A DNA stretch of 64,000 bases from Owenia fusiformis (Eukaryota > Annelida > Polychaeta > Sabellida > Oweniidae): assembly GCA_903813345.2 (NCBI GenBank), contig CAIIXF020000012.1:2705318-2769317 (forward strand), in the 5' to 3' direction. The translations under genes and the position numbers were made by a program. The stretch's first letter is position 1; each line of letters opens with the position of its first letter. The notes under the pieces were generated by a model. It had not been told where the DNA came from. It made no database searches and saw only the letters and a list, made by a program, of their open reading frames with translations. Shown piece by piece: positions 26,561 to 52,826 of the stretch.

Positions 26561-34323
<7,763 letters not shown>

Positions 34324-37500: not shown

Positions 37501-40500
37501 TTGAAGTCCCAAAACGGCTTAGTTTCAGAAATATCCCAAATTTAAATTCAAAAATAACCGTTAGCTCCGCACCCTCCGCTCATTTGCTCCGCACCCAATA
37601 TTTCCCACAGGCTCTGTCTGCATAGGGTGAAGAACAAGCCTCTAAATTAAGTGTATCATGATTAACGTGAAACCATGGGCTTTTGAAAGCCCATGGTGAA
37701 ACTAGATCTACATGTACATGTATATAATTTCTATAAGGCCATAGGGCATACATGTAGATAAAGACAATCCCAATCAATCCTGATTTGACATTTTCTGTAA
37801 GAGTCCAGATCATAGGTGTAATGAAATTTTTGCTTGGTTTAACTCTTGAGTGTTCAAGCATATAGATGAATGGAACAAATCGCATCTTTAATAAGGCATA
37901 TTACTAATAATGCAGAAGAAATGATAATATGACTCACCTTCAATAAATCTGTTGTAACGATCAAAATGACATTGTCAGTTTCCACAAAAATGTTTGGAAT
38001 GAAGCAATCCATATGACTGTATAATAGACATATGGATTGATATGAAAAAAATGAATATAGTCATATGGAATGATATGAAAAAGTAAATATATATAGTCAT
38101 ATGGATTGATATGAAAAAAAAACATATATGTATATAGTCATATGGATTGATATGAAAAAAATATAGTCTTAGATTGTAGAATGAATTTGTTAGATTTACT
38201 TTCCTATGAATTCAATAATATCACAATTTGAATTCCAAATTATAGAATCTAGACAAATCTGATCTATTGCCATATTCTATATTTCAATTGATATTGTCCT
38301 ATCAATCATATTTCAGTAATTATTACCCTGCTATATTTCAGTTGATAATGTCCTACTATATTTCAGTTGATTTCAAATTTTGTATTTCAGTGGATATTGT
38401 CCTTCAATATTTCAGTGGATATTGTCCTCAGACATGTTAGACTAACATATTTCAGTTGATATTGCCCAAGTTTAATATTTCAGTTGATATTGTCCCTTCT
38501 ATATTCAATTGATACTCCCAACTATTTTTCAGTTGATATTGCCCTTCTGTATTTCAGTTGATAGTCTCCTATTATTTTTCAGTTCATATTGGTCCATCAT
38601 TTATTATATTTCAGTTGATATTGCCCAGCTTTAATATTTCAGTCGATATTGTCCCATCTATATTTCAGTTGATATTTCCCTACTATATTTTAGTTGATAT
38701 TCCCCTATAGACTATTTTTCAGTCGCCCATTTTCAGTCAATATTGTCCTTTACTATATTTCAGTTGATATTGCTCCACAAGTTTTCAGTTGATATTGCCC
38801 TACTGTATTTCAATTGATACTACTCATTTTTCAGTTGATATTGCCCTACTGTATTTCAATTGATACTACTCATTTTTCAGTTGATATTGCCCTACTGTAT
38901 TTCAATTGATACTACTCATTTTTCAGTTGATATTGCCATACTGGGACTGGACAGAGGTGTATGATAAAAGCTGTTTGGTGTATAATCCCTATTTCATTGG
39001 AAAACAACTTGATGAAGACGATTGTGAGGTGAGTAATTTTAATACATATCAGATCACATAAAACATTAAAATGTCTTATGTAATGTCTCAACACCTCTCT
39101 AATTCAAATACTGTACCTCTTGATGTTAACATTTTTTCTGTCCCATTTTTTAATCCGTCATAGACTTCCATGTTAAAAACCTTGAAATGTGAACACCTGC
39201 CAATCTGAAAACTTTTAGTCAGTTTTAGTGATATTTCGATTTTAGTTTTAGTGTAAGGAGTTTATATTAGAAATTAAGATTTTTTTATGGATATGTGTTA
39301 ATTCAACTAAAATCTGCATACATTTTATGATTGTAGCTATGTGAGACCACAACTTCGTTGACACGAGAAGAGAATATTTCGCAAGTGGAAATGACAGAGA
39401 ATTTTCTGAAGCGTGACATACCGCTGATTGTTACAGACGCTATGTCTGATTGGCCGGCCAGAGAGAACTTCAGTTTGAAATATCTCCATGAAGTAAGAAG
39501 CACATTTTAGTTTATTACAATAAAGTTCTCATTTGAAATTTTCTTTTTATGATACATAAACTTGGATATCAATCTCAACGGTTTCCTGATTTTCTAAATA
39601 TGGTACAATTGAATTTTCAACTGCAAGTGTATTTTTACATTCTCTACTAAATACCAGATCTGATTATTTCAATGATTGTTTCAATGGTTTTTACAATGAT
39701 TGTTTTTCTCTAACATCTTACTCTTCAAGATTCCTAATAGAAATCATGTACGACTATTATTTGGGATAGTTGGGGTTTGTTTAACTTATAACTGATGCAC
39801 TTTTAGATGTTTTCTTTTTCTTGCTGTTTTCTCTTACCATTTTTTGGTACTTACCTGTTGACACTTGCGTAAAGACTCTTTTCCACTGAATGTATTAAAC
39901 ATTTTTTACAGCTTCACAAGAATGATCCAAAACTACGAGATGCATCGCCATGTGACTTTACAACAAATCTCAAGATTCCCAATGGAAACCATAGGGCATT
40001 TCTGAAGAAAGCTGCAAGTGGGAACATTAATAACTACTATGCACATTGGTTAGTCAGCTCTATAAAGTAAAGAATTATGTACCTATAAATAAAACTGATT
40101 AATGTTCATGTGAAAAATCATGAAGGGCAGCATCTGAGCAAAAAAACCAAGCAAATCCTCTATGAATCTTACGAACCATTTTATTTTACATGTATTCTAT
40201 ATTGAGCCAACCCGTAGCCAGGGGGGATTCGCAGGGTTCGGGCGAACCCCCCCCCCTGGCCCAAAATTCTCTCAAAATTATGCAGTTTTTCACCATTTTG
40301 AGCACTGTGAGCAAAGTGATTTTAGCCATATTTAGGCCAAAATTGTCAAAAGTGAACCCCCTGGAAATTTTTGAAAACTGACCCCCCCTTCGCAAATCCT
40401 GGCTACGGGCCTGTTGAGCTGATAATGAGAGAAAATATACAAAGAGAAATAACTTCAGTTTTGAATGTTTAGGGAAATGCACACTGAATCATTGATGAAT

Positions 40501-43500
40501 ATCTTCAGGGTCCTCAAGTACACTTCATTAATTGTAGTTTTTGGATACTTTGTACTGATTTTTATTCTCTTCCCTATTTATGGCTTCTCTAAGTCTAATA
40601 TGCATTTTTATTGTTTTTTCCTCGTAGGTCGAACTGTGACAAACAGGCAGCTAAAGTGTTGCGACAGTTCTACAAACGGCCATATTTTATCCCACCTATG
40701 GTAGAGTTCAGATACTCCAATTGGCTCTTTGTGTCAAACAAGTTTACAGGAAAGAGATTTAAGCCAGTAAGTTCTGTTCTTGTCATAAATTTTATCACTT
40801 TGTTATTAATTGTACTAAAAGTACCATATCCCTGCTCATATTCAAATTATTGACAATAATTTCATTTATGGCAATGTGAGAGTCGGTTAAGGTTTAGGTA
40901 TGAACAAGCCCTAAGAAGACCATTCCCCGGTTATCCCAGGTAAATGTTTCTGGTAAGTTACACTGAACGAAACATCAAGCTTCAGATCTCGAGAGTACGA
41001 GATGAGACTTTAGACGAGATATCGATAGGATTGTAGTTGGAGGGTTTTCTCCCTAGGTGCGTACAAAATCCATTAACATCAATGTAAGTTATACATTTCG
41101 ATTCTTTTTATCGACATTTATCTCTTGTATATACATTTATCTATCGCTGAATCGTTTTGTGAAAATTTTATCGTAATATTTCACACAAAAAACGTCAGTT
41201 TAAAAAAGTTCAAAAAAATTTCAAACTCATTTTATCTTTTGTCTTTATGACTTTGTAGTTTTATGTTTGAAGTATTCAATTGGTTTCTCGTTCATATGGT
41301 TTACAACTTGAATTTATACAAAATAATTAATTTATTGATGAATATGGACACGTCACATATTACTCGAGTCTCTACCTTACAGCTAGATGTAACTTCATTT
41401 ATTTCGTACGTACTCGTATTTCGTATGTAAAAATTGCTACACGCACCTAGAAATCATTTTATATTAATTATATTTAGGATGAAGCGTTGCTTGTCTGGTT
41501 TTAGATATTTCAAAATTTCTTTTCGGAGTTTGACACATGGTTAAATTTTCTCGCTGTAGCTAAAATGGCTTCCGGTTCCAGACGTCAATAATGTAGGAAA
41601 CTTTGAAATTATTCTCGCTTAAAGAAATCAAATATAACAATAGATTCAGACGGAGATGTGTGCTGATGTTTCTCAAATCTATACATAAAGATATATTTCA
41701 TATTATTATGCCGTATTTCCTGTGTGTGTGACACATTGATTTACAATATTTACAACACCAAGGCAGCTAATCTTTTTACTCAAAGCCGGAATATAGAGAA
41801 GGTTTGGACCTAAGTAAGTCACATACATGTCCTCAAGTTACGTTCAATAGACTCCATCAATCTAATAATAGATATTTCATTTATTTACGAGTGTAATTAA
41901 CCTTGTAGGCTATTAAATAAATATATCTATTCTATTTTATTATCCCATTCCAGAGATTTCTGGTTGTTATTGGGATTATTCATAGTACCATTAAGGTACA
42001 GATATCATTTTATTATTTGATATATATTTATCTCTTGAGAGAGCTATAATTATTCCTTTTCTTCTATATTTCTGACACCTTATTGCACATAATAAACTTT
42101 ACTCTGAGGATAAGACAGGAGTCAATAATATCCTTACCTTTCTTCTCCCATTATACAAGACAATTAGAGATGCCTAATGTTATTAGGGTCAGCATTATAG
42201 GCCACAGTTTTGTTCGGAAAATAGAAGAATCTAACCATTTTGACTTTAAATTAAAGGAAGACATAGTTAACTATAATACCATCATTGTATATACAATTAA
42301 ACAATTTCAGATGATGTAAAATATAAAAATCCCTATCCAGATATGGCTATATTACAGCTAGGAGAAAATGATCTGGTTCATAGATCATCTACCTTTGTTG
42401 CAAAAAATCTCATCACTTTGGCTGAACAATATTTAGATATACATCCTTCATTAAAAGCCTTTTATATTGGAGAACTATTTCAACGCTCATGGCATCCTTT
42501 CAAATCCTCGATCAATACTGCTTCAGAAGGCATTCAATATAATTCAATATTTTATCTACCAATTTCAAATTGTTAAATGATATTCATCATATCATAAGGG
42601 CAATAGACTTTTGTTCCTACACCACCCACATACCACCCAATATAGAATCAATGGTCAAATTTGATAGATGACTCCTACGATCCCATACATCTCAATGCAT
42701 AGGGGAAAAGCGTTTCGTCAAGTCCTGGAAAGGCGCAGTCCTGAGATTTCTTGATTACATTTATTAGGTAATAATAATTAGACTTAACATTAGAAGAGAC
42801 GGCTACTCTTCTCTAACCAAACATAAGCCAGAGAGTCGTTAACTTTTCACAATAGTTTATTCACTTAGTTATCCTTCATAAGTACTATACTTGTATTAGG
42901 AAATTTAGTTTCCTGTTTACTTATATTTTATCATATTTATATTATGATAAATATATATTATTTTGTATATCATCTGCATTTATTCATGCAGTGTATACTA
43001 TACCTTTAGACATGATATGTTATCATATTTATATTATGATAAATTCATATTATTTTATATTTCATATTCATGCATTGTATGCTTTACCTTTATTCTTAAA
43101 GGTTATCATATTTATATTATGATAATTCATATTATTTTATATATCATATGCATTTATTCATGCATTGTATACTTTACCTTTATTCTTAAAGGTTATCATA
43201 TTTTTATTATGATAATTCATTTTTTATATATCATATGCATTTATTTATGCAGTGTATTCTAAATCATATTTATTATGATTAGCCTTATGGGCATCATATT
43301 TATATTGTGATAATTCATAATCTTTATATATCATATGCATTTATTTATGCAGTGTATTCTAAATCATATTTATTATGATTAGCCTTTTGGGCATCTTATT
43401 TATATTATGATAATTCATAATCTTTATATATCATATGCATTTATTTATGCAGTGTATTCTAAATCATATTTATTATGATTAGCCTTATGGGCATCATATT

Positions 43501-46500
43501 TATATACATCTAACATGGAGCATGTGCTTCTATTTATATTTATCTAAATGTTTTTATGTCTTGAAGTTGCTTACCCTCTATATAACTACTAATTATTTCA
43601 CTGCAAATGTCTGAAACTGAAGGACCTAACCCAAGTGTTACTATTGAAGAGTATCACACTTCTAATACCCTGACTGCAGCCAAGTCTATGCCCACTTTAA
43701 TAAGGGGCAACTTTACAACAACTTTTCCCTTATCCCCTTTCCCTTCTTATTCCACTACATCTTCCATTCCAACCCAACATTTCATTCTCTCTAATTAGAC
43801 CCACAGCATCTATTACTCGCCCTATTCCATCTTTTGCATCAAGCGCTAATATCCGACCCTACCCTTTCATCCCTCCAGTCTCTACTAACCTTTCAGCTTT
43901 TCATAATTCCCAACCCGTCTCTACAGCTTATGGATTAATTCCCAACACAAATGCCATGCTACAAGGACAGGTGTCAGTAGCTTCAATAAATCCAATTCCC
44001 AGTTTTCAACATATTACATTACATTAATTTGTCCATATTTCAGTTTTTGCGGATTTACTTTAATTCATTTCTTTGATATTCTTATATTTTGGTATTCATG
44101 TATTGATTCATGATTGTTTTGAAGGAGACAAAAACAATGATTATGTCCTCTGTGAGATGTAATCTGACAATTCTTTTGAATCAAAACATTTGAATTTAAA
44201 CCCTTCAAAGAAGGGAAAATCCTTTCATTTCCAGAATGGGTCCGAGCATTCAGTATATTTATTGCTGTCTATACCCAAAGATTTCATGATCAAACCCCTC
44301 ACCTCTTGAAATATATATCCCCTTGTCCCTTTAACCACACCTGCCCAACTTGCAAAATGTTACTCCCGCAACAACGGCAGGCAAGCCCAATTCCCCAACA
44401 AAAAGCGCTCAGGTACTGGAGACTCCAAAAAAACCCTTCGAGTGAACTTATGTCAACACAAGTTGTTACTCCAGTTAAACCTGAAAGACTCGGATATTGG
44501 CTTGAAGGCTATGAACATCAAGAAGAAACAGTTCATGGTTTCTAGTACGGATTTAAATTTCCTCACTCTGATTTGCCAGAACATTACAACATTACTCATG
44601 ATAATTTGTCATCATATCTAAGAACCCAGAAGCTCTCAAAAAATTAAACAAAGAGCTTGAAGCTGGTAGAATACTTGGACCTTTTGACCAGCCACCGATA
44701 TTATTTCACCCTTATTTCTCGTTCCTAAAAATCTCCAGGTGAATTCTGTGTTATTCACAACTTATCACATCCCATAGGCCAACCCATAATGATACTATCC
44801 CAGACGAAACTTCTACAGTTAAATATGCAACCGTACAACAAGCCATAGATATTATAAAACATTTAGGAAAAGGTTGCTTCTTGTGTAAGACTATTAGAAG
44901 CTTGTTTGCTCATGGAAATGGCAAAACAATCATTGACACTTTATGTAACATCAACCCCTTTACCATTAAGCCAAAACCAAAGAAAGTCTCAAAGAGAACT
45001 TTTATCTGCTATAGGATTCCTTAGCTACTGTTGTTGTGTGATTCCTTTCGGTAGATCATTTATTTCATTATTTATTCATCTATCTAAAAATGAAGGAGCT
45101 ACATTATAAATTCTTAATCAACACTCCATCTATGCAGGATTTATTATTGTGGAAATAGTTTCTAATTCCCTTTAAGGGGAAATCTATTTTCCTTACAGAA
45201 GAACAAGAGACAAGAGAACAATTGCATCTTTTACCGATGCTTCTACTACGATAGGCTATGGAGCCGTTTGCAATTATCTTTGGTTTAAAGGGGAATGGCC
45301 ATCAGAATGGAAAGAATTGGACATCAATATTCTTGAATTATATCCTATTGTTACTGCTATACTTACATAGGCAAAACTTATGTCTGGACACACAGTTATC
45401 CTGCATTCTGACAATGAAGCAGTAGTGAACATACCGAAATAAATTTTCTACCAGCAATCAAACGTCCATGCAACTCTTACTTCCTATATATTAAAATGTA
45501 TCTTAAACAATATCATGTTCAAAGTGAACACATTGCTGGTATTCTTAATTCTGCTGCTGACGCTTTATCTAGAAACATTTATGTTACTTTTTATCTTTTT
45601 AGAAGCACTTCAAGCTGCCCAAGCCCCGTCTACCAGAAAGTCATATGATTTATTAGTACAGTTCAACTCCCAGACAGGTATAGGTGAATTTCCTCTAACC
45701 CCAGCCTCTGCTAGCCTTTTTGCAGCACATCTTCGTTTAAAGAATTATCCCCCTAATTCATTCAAGTCAGTTCTGTCTGGTATATCATTTTTATCATATT
45801 TTCACAATTAACAATTTCAAGGATCCCACTACTTCTTATGTAGTCTCTCAAATAGTTTCTGGTTTTTGTAAAAATTCCTAGCATAGACACTAGATTGCCA
45901 ATCAACACACCCTTGTTAGAACAAATGGTTTCTAAAACTTCTGAAGTAGATTTTGACCCTTTTGCTCAAGTCTTGTACAGAGCTATGTTATCTACAGCCT
46001 TTTTGGCTTACTAAGAAGTAGTGAGTTGACAAGTACTTCCGCAGGACACAACTTACAGTTAGAAAGTATTAAATTCTCTCCCGATGAAGCCTTTTTCATT
46101 ATTACTTTTTCACATTTTAAACATAGCTCATCTCCTGCTACGATATCAATTAATTCTCAATTACCATCTTGTTGTCCAGTATTACATATGAAGTTGTACC
46201 TGAACATAAGGTCCTTTAAATCAGGTCCTCTTTTCATTTATAGAGATGCTCCAGTGAATACTTCTGTATTTAACAATTTTCTTCACAAACTCTTTGTTCA
46301 ATGTCAGGTAGATCCTACCTTCTATAAATGCCACAGTTTGCGGATAGGCGGAGCTACATGGGCCACAAATCTTGGACTTGATTACTATACTATCAAAAGA
46401 TTGGGAGATGGCATACATACATACATACTTTAAAAAATATATTAGGTAGACATTTATAAACTCAGACTGGTGTCGAGTATGCAATTTTCATTAAAGCCCC

Positions 46501-49500
46501 AAAGTTGCTCAGACAGGTGTCGAGTATTCAATTTTCATGTAAACCCCAAAGTCGGCTCAAACAGGTGTCGAGCATGCAAATTTCAAGTAGCTACTGTTTT
46601 TTCTTCATGATGTACTAGAAATTTAATTGAGATAAACCCGCACTTTCTGAATTCAAAAATTTTCATTCAATTCTCATTCCTTTATCTTACCTGAGATTTA
46701 CAGCATATTACATTACATTACATTAATTTGTCCATCCATATTTCAGAATTTGCGGATTTACTTTAGTTCATTTCTATGATATTCTTATAATTTGGTATTC
46801 ATGTATTGATTTGTGTGTATCAATAAATGATTTAACTACTTTCTATTTAATCTTCTTTTCTTTTGGGCTCTCGCGAGAGATCGCGCATGGCCTTATTTTC
46901 GCCCAAGAAGATGAGTTGGAGATGGTATTATAATATATCCAATTGAGCTAATTAACAGTTATGTCAAATTGTAAACTCTTGTAGCTAATTAACTTAAATT
47001 AGCCATTATTTTCCAAGGTATTGTGTTTTGTGTTAATTGGCTCAATATTTATTTATATTAATTTTATATTAATAATTTTACATGTACGACTCTCACGGCC
47101 ATATCTATACTCTACATGAACATAAATTCAAATTATTGACAATAATTTCATTTATGGCAATGTGAGAGTCGGTTAAGGTTTAGGTATGAACAAGCCCTAA
47201 GAAGACCATTCCCCGGTTATCCCAGGTAAATGTTTCTGGTAAGTTACACTGAACGAAACATCAAGCTTCAGATCTCGAGAGTACGAGATGAGACTTTAGA
47301 CGAGATATCGATAGGATTGTAGTTGGAGGGTTTTCTCCCTAGGTGCGTACAAAATCCATTAACATCAATGTAAGTTATACATTTCGATTCTTTTCCCTCA
47401 CCTCCTTCCCCAGCTTACACCACCAGTTGGAGCCTTATTTTCGCCCAAGAAGATGAGTTGGAGATGGTATTATAATATATCCAATTGAGCTAATTAACAG
47501 TTATGTCAAATTGTAAACTCTTGTAGCTAATTAACTTAAATTAGCCATTATTTTCCAAGGTATTGTGTTTTGTGTTAATTGGCTCAATATTTATTTATAT
47601 TAATTTTATATTAATAATTTTACATGTACGACTCTCACGGCCATATCTATACTCTACATGAACATAAAAGTAAATTAGATTAGTGTATAATGTCTGGATC
47701 TTTCTGTGTCAGCTTTTACAGTGTGTTTAAATTGCCCAGGGTCCACTCACTCGGTGCCAAAATATGATTTTCCTAAAACATTCTTATTAGTTTCTCAATT
47801 TCTCATTTCAAACTTAGCACATACTGTATAAGATGGGATATGTTACATTTGTTTATTTTTCCCATTTATACTTATAATTTAGTTTTGTTGCTTATATATC
47901 CATATAGGCTAATTATAGTAATTATATTATATTTATCATATTATATTTATACATTATATTATATTAAAAGCTCAAAATAGTCTCTATATCTCTCTAGGTA
48001 ATTTGACTTGTTCAAGATATGTACAATCTGCTAAGAAGGTCAGATATTTTTTTATTTGCACTTCAGCAGGACCCTTATTATAAGTGTACATTTGTATATT
48101 GACAACATTATCTGGGGCTTGCAATAATATCAAGGTGTTTAAAAATTGGAAAATTAAATTATGTAGAAAGTTTCATTCTTGAACAGAATTTTCACTGCAA
48201 TTTTTCGAAAGAGGCCCCTCGTAAACATTTTCCACTTTTTGTTATGTCCCCACCACATAGTGTGGGGCCATATTGTCGGCCAAGGCGCGTCCGTCCGTCC
48301 GTCTGTCCGTCCGTCCGCCCGTCTGTCCGTCCGTCTGTCCGTCCGTACGTCCGGGAGTTTTCTCCAAAACCGCTACAGATATCACCTTCAAATTTTCAGG
48401 GATAACTTATGAGTGCATACAGATGTGGATGAAAAAAAATTAACTCCATACCTACTTCCTGTCGGCCATTTTGAAGTCAAATGCTAAAATCCTTGTCTGC
48501 AAACTTTAAGAAAAACGGCTTCACAGTTGCTTTTAAAACTTTAACATCTTGTTCAGCTCACTTCATTCTAGATCTGATTAGGTTTTGGACCTGTTAGCTC
48601 AGTCATGTCAGCCATTTTGAATGTCTTAAGAAAAGTTAGCGCACGATAATACTTTGTATCATATTGAATGGTGTTTTTGAGTTTTCATATTCTAACTATT
48701 TAGTAGCTTTATAAATAATTTCAGATGTACTTTGTTGTTAAAGCCTATGTTGTTGTTAACAGTATTTATATGTGATAATTTTGTAAAAAGAAATCAGCAA
48801 AAACTCATGATCACTTTTTTATTGTCAGCCATTTTGGATTTTTCCGTCCTAAAATCTTGTCTGTGGAGTCTTGTCTACGTGTTTCCAGGTGAACCATTTG
48901 GTGGATCAATTCTTGATTTTCAGGGATGATTCTTAGTATAAAAATCTAGATCTGATTAGTTTTTTGGCATTCTGGGTAAATGTCAAGGCAGCCATTTTGG
49001 ATTTTCCGTCCTAAAATCTTGTCTGTAAAGTCTTGTCTACGCGTTTTCAGGTGAACTGTTTGGTAGATCAATTTCAATTTTTCAGGGATGATCCTTAATA
49101 TGAAAATGTACAACTGATTAGTTTTTTGGCATTCTGGGTAATTGTCAAGGCAGCCATTTTGGATTTTCCGTCCTAAACTATTGTCTGTAAAGTCTTGTCT
49201 ACGCATTTCCAGGTGAACAGTTCTGTAGATCAATTTCAAATTTTCAGGGATGATTCTTAGTATGAAAATCTAGATCTGATTAGTATTTGGGCATTCTGGG
49301 TAAATGCCAAGGCAGCCATTTTGGATTTTTCGTCCTAAAATCTTGTCTGTAGAGTTTTGTCTACGCATTTCCCGGTGAACCGTTTGGTAGATCAATTTCA
49401 AATTTTCAGGGATGATTCTTAATATGAAAATCTAGATCTGATCAGTTTTTTGGCATTCTGGATAAATGTCAAGGCAGCCATTTTGGATTTTCCGTCTTAA

Positions 49501-52500
49501 AATCCTGCCCGTAAAGTCTTGTCTATGCGTTTTTAGGTGAACCGTTTTGTAGATCAATTTCAAATTTTCAGGGATGATTCTTAGTATGAAAATCTAGATC
49601 TGATTAGTTTTTTGGCATTCTGGATAAATGCCAAGGCAGCCATTTTGGATTTTCCGTCTTAAAATCCTGCCCGTAAAGTCTTCTCTACGCGTTTTTAGGT
49701 GAACCGTTTTGTAGATCAATTTCAAATTTTCAGGGATGATTCTTAGTATGAAAATCTAGATCTGATTAGTTTTTTGGCATTCTAGGTAAATTTTAAGGTG
49801 GCCATTTTGGATTTTCCGTCATCAAATTGTGTCGGTAAAGTCTTGTCTACTCATTTTTAGGATAACCATTTGACAGGATCACCCATAGGTGGGGACATTT
49901 TGTACACATTTGTGTTCTTGTTTCCCTTTATTAAAGGCTGAAGGTTTTGGTGAAGGTTGTTGTTGGTAAAGCAAGTGTGCAATATAAAAAACAATATTGA
50001 ATGGTGAATGGGAATAAATGTGGTGTAGGCTATATGTTTATTACTTATGTGCTATAAGGTATTATGGTTGTATGTTGGCACTTAACGTGTATAGTAAAAC
50101 CTGTATAAGTGGAACACATTTGGTACCTGTAAAAAGTGTTCCAGTTAAGAGGTGTTCCACTCACAGAGGTGTTCCACTTACAGAGGTGTTCCACTTTCAG
50201 AGGTGTTCCACTTTACAGGTTATACTGTACATGGTGGAGGGAAAGTTATTCTTCAAAAATAGAAACCATTGGTTGACCACCGAATAAATACTTTACAATA
50301 TTAAAATGTTGGTTTCTTGCAAAATCACCAAAAAATGAGACTGTATGTTTAAGAAAGTGAGCTCTCATAAGCCATATTTAGAAATAATTAAGTATCCATA
50401 TTATATATTGAATGAAGCCTAAGAGGTGGATGGATATTAATATCAAATACTTAATCAGAAACTAATATACCTATTTTCTTGCGCTAATATTGATATCAAG
50501 CTCCAATATAGGATACTTAAGGTACCATTCTTCAGATTATTTTTCCAATGGGTGCACATTATCTAATGAAGCATATTATGAAAATATGATTTATTTGCAG
50601 CATTCTTTCCATTTTATTGATCCAATATGATGCCTTTTGTAAAAATCAACCATGAAGAATAAATGGTGAGAATCATTGTTTCTAAAATTGATCTGATACT
50701 GCAGGTTGACACCTGCAAATCTGAAGACGTATTTAATATGATAGCTTCTTGTTGAACCTATTTAATTGCTTGAATACCTGCAGCGCCAAGATTTCTTGTG
50801 ACCAAAAACTGACCCAATACCTCGAGTGAAGACTTTGGAGAGACACATGCAATCATTCATAGAGTTCTTCATTAGAATTGGTCTTTTTATTATAAACTAC
50901 ATGTATGCAACTTATGTTTCTAAATGGATGCTCATTACTTTACCAACTTGAGAGTCATATGTTGTGTAATGACCCGAGGGCGCCCCAGGGGAATGACTAA
51001 CTAGGAATGACTAACCAACGAGCATAGTGTAACAAGCCAGATAAAGAAATTGAAAGAAAGTGTGCTAAATTCAATGCCCTGTGTGGGAATCGAACCTAGG
51101 ACCCTTGAATCCAAAGACTGATGCTCTACCGACTGAGCTATAAAGGCTTAAGCCACTACAGCTGGACTGTAGTAGCAACTTGCTATCAAGGGTCGTTACA
51201 GTTGTATAATATGTCACTGATTTGTCAATCATCTGTCAATCATCATGTAGATAATCATCAAGTGACCTGTCAATCATTATATATTTCATCATTTTTATTA
51301 GCTATCAATTGGATCAGCAGTTGGTGTGATGAGTGTAGTGACAGGTCAATTTGACATCAAATTGTTGCCCCGCCCACCAGGCAATGTGACCTGTCAATCA
51401 TAACATATTTCATCATTTGTAGCTATCAATTGGGTCAGCAGTTGGTGTGATGAGTGTAGTGAAAGGTCAATTTGACATCAAATTGTTGCCCCGCCCACCA
51501 GGCAATGTGACCTGTCAATCATAATACATTTCATTATCATTGTAGCTATCTATTGGGTCAGCAGTTGGTGTGATGAGTGTAGTGAAAGGTCAATTTGACA
51601 TCAAATTGTTGCCCCGTCACCAGGCAATGTGACCTGTCAATCATAATACATTTCATTATCATTGTAGCTATCTATTGGGTCAGCAGTTGGTGTGATGAGT
51701 GTAGTGAAAGGTCAGTTTGACATCAGATTGTTGCTCCGCCCAGAAGGCAATGTGACCTGTCAATCATAACATATTTCATCATTTGTAGCTATCAATTGGG
51801 TCAGCAGTTGGTGTGATGAGTGTAGTGAAAGGTCAATTTGACATCAGATTGTTGCTCCGCCCAGAAGGCAATGTGACCTGTCAATCATAACATATTTCAT
51901 CATTTGTAGCTATCAATTGGGTCAGCAGTTGGTGTGATGAGTGTAGTGAAAGGTCAATTTGACATCAAATTATTGCCTCGCCCACCCTGCAATGAAACGT
52001 GCGTGGAGCTGACAGAAACTCTCACAGAAGGTGAAATATGTAAGTATACTTTTATCTCTGCACCTCAGTTCAAATGTTCATTAGTTGAAAAACAATATGT
52101 TCCAATATTACATAACAATAAAAATGAGAAAATGTGATTTATCTAATTTTACACATTATTTTCAAATTTTGATTATTATTCACATGTTGAATTTATGTAG
52201 CTCAATGATTTGATCAATTCTGTGTTAACAAAATGTTTGTAATATTTCCTTTGTTATACGACTTGTTGACGACATTTGTCTTCGTAGTTATTTGAGGAAG
52301 TATACACTGCCTTTAGAAGAAACTATCTATATCAGACACATTACCAAACAATGAACTTATCTTATCATTAAAATAGAGATAACCTTGTGTAAGTTCAAAA
52401 GATAGATTCCTCGAAATATGTATTACATTGTATTCTTAGGTCACTGACCAACCTTAATTTAAATTTCACTAATAATCTGAAGAATTGAGAAGCATGTTTA

Positions 52501-52826
52501 TTATGTCCATAATAGCAGTGTATCAATATATATTTCAGTGGTCTTTACTGACAACTTATGGTATCTCGACTACCTTCCCAATGGGATCCTCGCATTCTCG
52601 TGAACTAATATAATCAGTATTTCAATATATTTCAGTGGTCTTTACTGACAACTTATGGTATCTCGACTACCTTCCAAATGGGATCTCGCATTCTCGTGAA
52701 CTAATATAATCAGTATTTCAATATATTTCAGTGGTCTTTACTGACAACTTATGGTATCTCGACTACCTTCCAAATGGGCCTGGAGAAAGCATTGCAATAG
52801 GAGTTGGAGGCAATTTTGATGATTAA
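34597..52826 (+). CDS. Single-pass membrane protein with JmjC/cupin-like domain lacking metal ligands
   Basis: Seven exons: 34597-34902, 38927-39028, 39337-39492, 39912-40048, 40628-40766, 51910-52039, 52732-52826. All join in phase; 1,065 nt give 354 aa. Start chosen at ATAATGGCG; an in-frame ATG at 34579 is possible. Residues 1-70 are charged and probably cytosolic, 71-85 (WAGICVLILAILFYF) span the membrane, and the rest carries sequons (NIS, NFS, NET) that suggest a lumenal or extracellular side. The later part follows JmjC/cupin_8 order: FLKRDIPLIVTDAMSDWP, SNWLFVS, then LLPRPPC, LTEGEILVFTDNLWY and a Gly-rich end GVGGNFDD. The expected H-x-D and distal His are not visible (KRFKPLSIGSAVG and NLWYLDY occupy those places), so it may be a pseudoenzyme. 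Intron 5 (11.1 kb) holds a retrotransposon. Exons 2, 6 and 7 are each preceded by tandem copies of their own acceptor region. Confidence 0.85.
34938..35954. mobile_element. Foldback element with tandem subrepeats in intron 1
   Basis: The left end (around GCAAGACTTACGCCTG and TTTTTTAAGTAGCGCAAGGA) is repeated inverted at the right end (TCCTTGCGCTACTTAAAAAA, then CAGGCGTTAGTCTTGC). Arms exceed 150 bp and carry a ~45-60-bp subrepeat with 'CATTGTCACGGTCATACCAGG'-like sequence, reiterated about nine times on the right side. The 142-codon frame at 35391-35819 is produced by this repeat and is not a gene. Confidence 0.85.
36780..37629. mobile_element. 850-bp near-perfect palindrome (foldback element)
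   Basis: Arms of about 410 bp start CACCCTATGCAGACAGAGCC and end with its reverse complement. They meet near 37190-37215 around GCGGAGCTACG. The phrase ATTGGGTGCGGAGC occurs twice in each arm. High arm identity indicates recent formation or conversion. Frames such as 37434-37625 and 36784-36975 are mirror images and not genes. Confidence 0.9.
38029..38165 (+). repeat. Short tandem repeat CATATGGATTGATATGAAAA
   Basis: The unit CATATGGATTGATATGAAAA plus a variable AT linker recurs about four times. It lies in intron 1 of the cupin-like gene, ahead of the splice-acceptor array. Confidence 0.85.
38272..38926 (+). repeat. Array of ~25 copies of the exon 2 splice acceptor
   Basis: The motif TATTTCAGTTGATATTGCCC (19-35-bp period, many variants) is repeated about 25 times directly before exon 2. 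The real boundary at 38926/38927 reads TTTTCAG then TTGATATTGCC, so each unit reproduces the acceptor AG and the first nine exon bases. Most units keep CAG; some have CAA or TAG. Confidence 0.92.
40211..40409. mobile_element. MITE with CCCGTAGCCAGG ends
   Basis: A 199-bp element is bounded by the perfect inverted repeat CCCGTAGCCAGG / CCTGGCTACGGG, with a C-run near the left end. A shorter relative lies at 57882-57970. It sits in intron 4 of the cupin-like gene. Confidence 0.88.
40841..41108 (+). repeat. Split direct repeat A1
   Basis: Starts TTCAAATTATTGACAATAAT and ends CGATTCTTTT. Matches A2 throughout. Contains GTGAGAGTCG, the reverse complement of CGACTCTCAC near the end of the B repeats. 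Confidence 0.95.
42083..42705 (+). pseudogene. SGNH-hydrolase relic of the retrotransposon
   Basis: IRVSIIGHSFVRKIEE gives block I (G-x-S), DMAILQLGENDL gives block III (G-x-N-D), and DPIHLN at about 42681 gives the D-x-x-H block. A stop near 42318 and later shifts break the frame. SGNH-type esterase domains are known in Ngaro-like elements; their role is unclear. Confidence 0.7.
42930..43505 (+). repeat. AT-rich minisatellite inside the retrotransposon
   Basis: Two related unit types of about 85-90 bp share TATATCATATGCATTTAT: one with 'TTTATTCTTAAAGGTTATCA' (42960-43210), the other with 'GATTAGCCTTATGGGCATCA' (43260-43505). The 99-codon frame 42963-43262 is a repeat artefact. Confidence 0.85.
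43607..45120 (+). pseudogene. gag-like and reverse-transcriptase pieces of the retrotransposon
   Basis: 43607-43798 is a Ser/Thr/Pro-rich start. About 44215-44545 reads FPEWVRAFSIFIAVYTQRF and a Cys-containing segment CPFNHTCPTCKM. 44640-44900 has the N-terminal RT palm (LGPFDQPP, then VIHNLSHP across frames). 44906-45109 is the RT tail (LLSAIGFLSYCC). The middle of the palm with the Y-x-D-D site is missing, as if deleted. A ~100-bp sequence at 44011-44109 is repeated at 46704-46812. Confidence 0.75.
45195..45440 (+). pseudogene. RNase H piece of the retrotransposon
   Basis: A frame reading SFTDASTTIGYGAV, then WKELDINILELYPI and HSDNEAVV shows the D...E...D order of RNase H. A stop follows within the domain. 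Confidence 0.7.
45515..46470 (+). pseudogene. Tyrosine recombinase of the retrotransposon
   Basis: 45590-45811 gives an N-terminal core-binding part (QAPSTRKSYDLLVQF). 46026-46433 gives the catalytic part with KCHSLRIGGATWATN (H-x-L-R box) and the terminal region. The segment holding the first Arg is interrupted by stops. A one-base shift near 46405 turns the expected L-G-R-W into L-G-D-G just before the tyrosine-bearing end. Family: DIRS/Ngaro YR. Confidence 0.85.
46868..46879. promoter_or_regulatory. CTCTCGCGAGAG palindrome next to B1
   Basis: A perfect 12-bp palindrome containing TCTCGCGAGA lies 10 bp before repeat B1. The same decamer occurs in the DDX52 promoter. Whether it serves the element as a promoter or packaging/recombination site is unknown. 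Confidence 0.45.
46890..47126 (+). repeat. Split direct repeat B1
   Basis: Starts GCCTTATTTTCGCCCAAGAA, ends CATGAACATAAA; matches B2 throughout and abuts A2 directly. Confidence 0.95.
47127..47394 (+). repeat. Split direct repeat A2
   Basis: 268-bp repeat of A1, joined directly to B1 and followed by a 37-bp spacer before B2. Confidence 0.95.
47432..47668 (+). repeat. Split direct repeat B2, right end of the element
   Basis: 237-bp repeat of B1. The shared sequence stops at CATGAACATAAA, which defines the element's right end at 47668. 47669-48243 then shows AT-rich intron only. Confidence 0.95.
48244..49898. mobile_element. Element with ATGTCCCCACC ends, CCGT microsatellite and tandem core
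   Basis: An 11-bp inverted repeat (ATGTCCCCACC / GGTGGGGACAT) bounds 1,655 bp. A CCGT/CTGT microsatellite lies at 48287-48353. Then six or so ~173-bp tandem units run from about 48820 to 49850, each with AAATTTTCAGGGATGATTCT, AAATCTAGATCTGATTAGT and CAGCCATTTTGGATTTTCCG. The 97-codon minus frame here is a repeat artefact. It lies in intron 5 of the cupin-like gene. Confidence 0.85.
50092..50228. mobile_element. Small Tc1/pogo-like MITE with GGAACAC subrepeats
   Basis: Ends AGTAAAACCTGTATAAGTGG and the inverted CCACTTTACAGGTTATACT. The interior is a run of GAGGTGTTCCACTT units (about four). A relative lies at 56505-56656. Confidence 0.75.
50965..51200 (-). mobile_element. tRNA-derived element with short terminal inverted repeats
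   Basis: TGTAATGACCC at the left and GGGTCGTTACA at the right form nearly perfect inverted ends flanked by GTTG on both sides (possible 4-bp target duplication). Within it, minus strand 51146-51075 reads as a tRNA-like unit with A box (TAGCTCAGTCGGTAGAGC) and B box (GGTTCGATTCC). The anticodon arm does not pair, so it is not a working tRNA. The 5' flank and the tail CATTGAATTTAGCACAC are shared with the copy at 57511. Confidence 0.75.
51302..51909 (+). repeat. Five upstream copies of the exon 6 acceptor and exon start
   Basis: Units of 121-123 bp start at 51302, 51423, 51546, 51668 and 51789, each a TAG acceptor followed by about 80 nt of exon 6 (SAVGVMSVVKGQFDI), in front of the real exon at 51910. 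In the copies the frame leaves the exon after RPPGNVTCQS and meets TAA (copy 3 has a 1-bp loss). Only the last copy continues to CNETCVELTE and a GTAAG donor. Confidence 0.92.
52539..52731 (+). repeat. Two upstream copies of the exon 7 acceptor and exon start
   Basis: TATTTCAG followed by TGGTCTTTACTGACAACTTA occurs at 52539, 52636 and, as the real exon, 52732 (period 96-97 bp). The two copies share the first ~55 exon bases, then turn into CTCGCATTCTCGTGAACTAA, which would end the protein early. Confidence 0.92.

Follow-up and report, generated by a model that had tools for sequence, protein, structure and literature searches.

The locus raises the question of why several exons of one gene should each be preceded by tandem copies of their own 3' splice site, and of whether such arrays belong to acceptors or to exon edges in general. 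The gene lies in the window, by which we mean the whole stretch of 64,000 nucleotides of Owenia fusiformis DNA that was analysed. A sequence-only reading had noted acceptor copies before three exons and no copies across a donor, and had proposed either a process linked to acceptors or a regulatory use of the surplus sites. Splice-site choice is usually studied using engineered duplicate sites, and arrays of this sort are natural tests of how the correct site gets chosen.

Acceptor arrays in the window

Five exons of the window gene were found (exons 1, 2, 3, 6 and 7 in the numbering of the sequence-only reading; exons 4 and 5 were not found), and with these five joined as the query there was neither a Pfam match near the cut-off nor a significant PDB relative, so that the earlier label, cupin-like, was not confirmed. 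The arrays themselves were found as described: by TRF and boundary mapping, exons 2, 6 and 7 are preceded by 24, 5 and 2 copies of their own acceptors (Table 1), and self-alignment also recovers the three tandem arrays. All are well over the TRF score threshold of 50, with several overlapping rows at exon 2 (38277-38943; the 46-bp row scores 317), 6.0 copies of 121 bp at exon 6 (51262-51994; score 1207), and 2.6 copies of 96 bp at exon 7 (52528-52778; score 488). The exon-2 array is built of units of about 25 bp, its last part consisting of 46-bp higher-order units, and shares only about 9 exon bases with exon 2.

Table 1. Acceptor arrays of the window and the exons that they precede (window positions).
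Feature	Position	Strand	Basis
Exon-2 acceptor array, 24 degenerate copies	38277..38926	+	TRF and per-copy boundary mapping
Real exon 2, then gtgagt	38927..39028	+	Sequence and boundary mapping
Exon-6 acceptor array, 5 copies of 121-123 bp with about 80 exon bases	51262..51909	+	TRF and boundary mapping
Real exon 6, then gtaagt	51910..52039	+	Sequence and boundary mapping
Exon-7 acceptor array, 2 copies of 96-97 bp with about 55 exon bases	52510..52731	+	TRF and boundary mapping
Real exon 7, ends at its TAA stop	52732..52826	+	Sequence and boundary mapping
One upstream acceptor copy, 121 bp, DDX-like exon	31797..31947	-	TRF, repeat pair and boundary mapping
Real DDX-like exon, then gtaaga	31639..31796	-	Sequence and boundary mapping

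The upstream copies end before the donor and give a stop or a frame change if entered. At exon 2, AG is present in 19 of the 24 copies, and using these would produce a stop in 18 and a frame shift in one; at exons 6 and 7, AG is present in every copy (5/5 and 2/2) and each would lead to a stop (5/5 and 2/2). Pooled over the three exons, 25 of the 26 intact copies yield a stop and one a frameshift, as the sequence-only reading had predicted. Its statement that the last copy is always the real exon is true, but the geometry of a tandem duplication across an acceptor forces this; its view that these are separate events with different units, tolerated as an intact edge remains, is supported.

Two other origins were considered and rejected. 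Mutually exclusive exons do not fit, the window copies not being whole exons with both splice sites. A dispersed repeat is not the source of the arrays at exons 2 and 6, whose units match nowhere else in the genome in a DNA search that skips simple or very common words: the exon-2 17-mer TTTCAGTTGATATTGCC has seven exact genome matches, all of them in the exon-2 array or exon 2 itself, and the exon-6 array occurs at one single place in the assembly.

A fourth case, absent from the earlier list, was detected by TRF and self-alignment at window positions 31700-31947 on the minus strand, in a gene that we named DDX-like from a DEAD match and a Helicase_C match in one stretch. Its single decoy carries about 95 exon bases and an intact AG, and would cause a frameshift if used.

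Arrays are common in the window anyway, since it contains 50 TRF rows and direct repeats cover 12.35 kb of its 64 kb (self-alignment, at least 25 bases, within 1.5 kb). That three of about six acceptors in the window gene are affected would have p=0.004 at the 6.1% rate reported below, but the gene was chosen on account of these arrays, and the figure is therefore no evidence of clustering. Between the exons of the window gene, at 42050-46430, lie ORFs that resemble, by eye, pieces of a tyrosine-recombinase retroelement (DIRS-like), and at 46890-47677 there is a direct repeat of 246 bp with 98.8% identity, its copies being 542 bp apart.

Frequency of boundary-spanning arrays in the genome

The genome searched was the 498-Mb assembly of 525 contigs, twelve of which hold 95.8%; the window is C12:2705318-2769317 in it. 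The genome contains haemoglobin-linker-like genes: for the query compared, the top-scoring chains were LDL-receptor relatives, which match over the LDL-A repeat alone, annelid haemoglobin linkers came next (best 1.5e-14), and enteropeptidase likewise matched over most of its length. A search for COX1 found none. Exons were located by family searches (kinesin, myosin, DEAD and kinase), giving 189 pieces with 500-bp flanks and 280 exons; flanks of this length do not capture arrays whose units are longer. The first set took 232 of the 292 listed rows (112 kinesin, 81 myosin and 39 DEAD), omitting long or multi-stop rows, whole-domain single-exon rows, weak rows, the window's own DEAD row and a 12-row myosin tandem-exon cluster, and collapsing the 18 rows of one kinesin array to one. 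The kinase set took 48 of 144 rows, that is, 40 pieces in table order plus the exons merging with them, and omitted long, multi-stop and near-duplicate gene rows. An edge was scored as crossed when a direct repeat extended 6 bases or more beyond the predicted boundary in both directions and its partner lay on the intron side. The omitted myosin cluster (C9:37986009-37994334, minus strand) comprises twelve matches to positions 18-84 of the Myosin_head profile, spread over some 8 kb and lying upstream of the myosin gene's other exons; they appear to be complete alternative exons.

Acceptors were crossed in 17 of 279 exons (6.1%; 95% interval, 3.8 to 9.5%), one of the 280 acceptors being unpredictable, and donors in 7 of 280 (95% interval, 1.2 to 5.1%); negatives were scored by script, so that misses are possible at acceptors and donors alike, and the four cases of the window, whose genes are not fully annotated, are excluded from these counts. 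At acceptors, the first set contributed 15 crossed edges of 231 and the kinase set 2 of 48; at donors, they contributed 6 of 232 and 1 of 48. The acceptors of four loci (L021, L040, L072 and L169), mispredicted with in-frame stops or in the wrong frame, were corrected by eye, and all remain acceptor-spanning.

The donor-spanning arrays lie at L034, L041, L097, L100, L129, L160 and L174. This total is unchanged by the removal of L069, in which only four exon bases are shared, and the addition of L174. In the former (C4:17295408-17299481), a 34-bp unit repeats from the exact donor of a myosin exon, the four shared bases being ACAG; in the latter (C5:68921-70277), a single kinase exon is affected at both ends, with three decoys of 86 bp at its acceptor and one copy of 71 bp across its donor. 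On reading, repeats were also seen to come near a boundary and stop short of it at six loci (L010, L039, L074, L114, L136, L137 donor side).

An acceptor-only rule is thus not supported, seven sampled donors being crossed and one exon, L174, having both kinds of array. Nor did the sample give the equal number at donors that the sequence-only reading had named as its refutation: the difference is 2.4-fold (binomial p=0.064; Fisher p=0.039). We regard the excess as borderline and suggestive only, and there may be a moderate asymmetry; the sparing of donors in the window was a small-sample impression, possibly with a kernel of truth.

Repeat density around exon edges

In the first 232 exons, repeat coverage on the upstream side was 8.7 to 9.9% in the intron (60 to 480 bases off), 6.5% at the acceptor and 3.0% in the exon (60 to 100 bases in). 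On the downstream side it was 5.8 to 7.3% in the intron (60 to 480 bases off), 2.6 to 3.1% at the donor and 1.6 to 2.5% in the exon before the donor. Crossing counts over all 280 exons agree with this picture: upstream intron points 60 to 400 bp inside were crossed in 15 to 27 of 219 to 278 cases (6.8 to 10.0%; 15 to 27 of 219 to 271 for those at 100 to 400 bp), and downstream points 100 to 400 bp inside in 12 to 15 of 217 to 272, which places acceptors near the intron background and donors about twofold below it. The points 100 and 150 bp into the introns were not crossed at a rate significantly different from that of acceptors or donors (p 0.08 to 0.41).

Nothing seems to draw repeats to acceptors, since these are crossed no more often than intron points, and the fall in coverage toward the acceptor in the first 232 exons argues against the lariat-, branch-point- or replication-linked process that had been suggested for them.

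Properties of the decoy copies

We aligned 92 decoys to the corresponding real edge in 27 arrays (17 sampled acceptors, 3 window acceptors without that of exon 2, and 7 donors). The splice signal is intact in most of them, AG being kept in 70 of 74 decoys at acceptors and GT in 17 of 18 at donors. Splicing at the 87 intact decoys would lead to a stop in 68, a frameshift in 9 and an in-frame insertion in 10, and the exon-adjoining copy carries the reading frame on. Unit length is a multiple of 3 in 7 of the 27 arrays, which is no preference, and 77 of the 87 decoys break the frame or bring a stop; on these two grounds a coding use of the decoys was rejected, and we conclude that they are not kept for coding. 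Decoys differ from the real edge by a mean mismatch of 9.5% on the intron side (25 bases) and 4.9% on the exon side, and contain 10 exonic frameshift indels. In the kinesin, myosin and kinase domains the copied piece is recognisable as the start or end of a conserved-domain exon, from which we conclude that the exon is the source of the array.

Changes between acceptor decoys and real edges were 44 synonymous to 55 non-synonymous, with 25 synonymous expected (p=4e-5); between donor decoys and real edges they were 6 to 13, with 4.9 expected (p=0.6). Among decoys alone there were 19 synonymous changes to 29 (12.2 expected; p=0.03), a result that leans on L017 (6 to 2). The synonymous excess can be explained by purifying selection on the real edge together with exchange between copies, and the shift between decoys and acceptors is not taken as a sign of decoy function, since purifying selection on the real edge yields it. 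AG was mismatched in 4 of 122 comparisons versus 245 of 2752 at neighbouring positions (p=0.03), a figure that includes four misplaced boundaries and non-independent copies and is not relied on.

One extreme case, L017 (C2:23265859-23270305), has 18 copies of a kinesin exon edge in units of 159 bp, of which the last is the real exon and the other 17 are near-identical decoys ending in TAA; we take the exon to be KIF4-like from its sequence. At two other loci, decoys match the real site without a difference in the 25 bases compared on each side of the boundary (both decoys of L101, and two of the three of L130).

Origin of the arrays

The reading that we favor, with a probability of about 0.8, is that the arrays are minisatellites that came to include an exon edge by chance as they grew, and that survive since one intact edge remains. 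The course of events may be pictured as follows: (i) a short stretch running from the intron into the exon would be duplicated in tandem, its breakpoints lying on either side of the boundary, and the exon edge would be copied together with its splice signal; (ii) slippage or unequal exchange would then expand the copied edge into the intron; (iii) the array would be tolerated, one complete exon edge staying beside the rest of the exon; (iv) the spliceosome would presumably pick the site that can be paired, across the intact exon, with the opposite splice site (exon definition), so that the exon-proximal copy wins; and (v) decoys would be ignored, or their products sent to nonsense-mediated decay. 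Exon edges would on this account be hit passively, with weak purging that is maybe stronger at donors, as suggested by the facts that intron arrays are common, that acceptors are crossed at about the background rate and that donors are crossed at about half of it. Two observations count against a purely passive origin, namely, the acceptor excess (p=0.064 or 0.039), which a purely symmetric process leaves unexplained, and the leaning of the decoys toward synonymous change.

That excess, 17 acceptor to 7 donor arrays in 280 exons, would be expected if arrays started at acceptors by a mechanism that prefers them, be it branch-point- or lariat-linked or slippage in the pyrimidine tract, and the window, its genes not fully annotated, adds four acceptor cases with no donor case noted. 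We nevertheless hold such a preference to be quite unlikely: donor arrays exist, intron points are crossed at a rate (6.8 to 10.0%) no lower than the 6.1% of acceptors, and coverage drops toward the acceptor instead of rising. It is likewise improbable that the decoys are functional and act as poison acceptors, titrating splicing or feeding transcripts to decay. Their dinucleotides are intact (70/74 and 17/18), and the 17 decoys of the KIF4-like array share a common TAA end and vary mostly synonymously; however, young or homogenised copies would have intact signals as well, units and positions are specific to each locus without any frame preference, and the 10 exonic frameshift indels are present. 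A bolder version supposes that, with intact splice sites multiplied in about one in twelve sampled exons, certain arrays, the KIF4-like one with its 17 decoys for example, could be reservoirs of decoy acceptors that titrate splicing, their use leading to decay or a truncated protein, and that donors would be spared since donor decoys cannot be ignored; we give this little credence.

For exon 2 alone, the acceptor may have moved into an older intronic array, the repeat then being the source of the exon's start. The degeneracy of that array and its overlap of about nine exon bases are consistent with such a shift, but at other loci the repeats clearly derive from conserved exon edges, and we consider the shift doubtful. 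Assemblies are prone to errors in tandem repeats, and the copy numbers given here are those of the assembly only, but that the arrays as such are assembly artefacts is hardly credible, as copies differ from one another in most arrays (the mean mismatches being those given above) and the arrays recur across many unrelated genes.

The arrays have several consequences. Very local sequence alone cannot decide which site is used, because decoys at L101 and L130 match the real site exactly. Since the arrays are so frequent, edges of this kind may mislead gene predictors and RNA-seq aligners. The arrays also provide material from which introns can be gained and new splice forms can arise.

Comparison with known systems

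Tandem repeats that span splice sites have been described in lancelets, where they are named mirages (PMC3087553, PMC3902484); examples are PGBD5, Adh and troponin C (PMC3902484), and normal splicing (by RT-PCR) and length instability are reported (PMC3087553, PMC3902484). The Owenia arrays have the features of mirages: they are boundary-spanning tandem repeats in which either exon edge, acceptor or donor, may be affected, AG or GT is kept in many copies, and the real edge stands at one end. Units are 10 to 160 bp in the lancelet and 25 to 260 bp in Owenia; the published mirages concern a handful of genes, whereas the present sample has 17 crossed acceptors out of 279 and 7 crossed donors out of 280; and the host is a lancelet in the one case and an annelid in the other.

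Other systems resemble the arrays less closely. Mutually exclusive exons, which arise by tandem duplication of whole exons, also repeat exonic sequence within a gene; unlike them, the Owenia copies are truncated and lack the opposite splice site, the C9 myosin cluster perhaps being an example of whole-exon duplication. Intron gain by internal tandem duplication (PMC3087553, PMC2891723) similarly involves tandem duplication that includes splice signals, but the Owenia arrays lengthen an existing intron, and no new intron was seen. In a literature search that covered few subscription papers, no report was found of mirages outside lancelets or of their genome-wide frequency, and for annelids the one paper that came up concerns intronic minisatellites and an earthworm metallothionein (PMC12783039). 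The occurrence in an annelid suggests that mirages are not a lancelet peculiarity. The structure is thus of a known kind, and what is new is its annelid host and its measured frequency, about 6% of the sampled acceptors.
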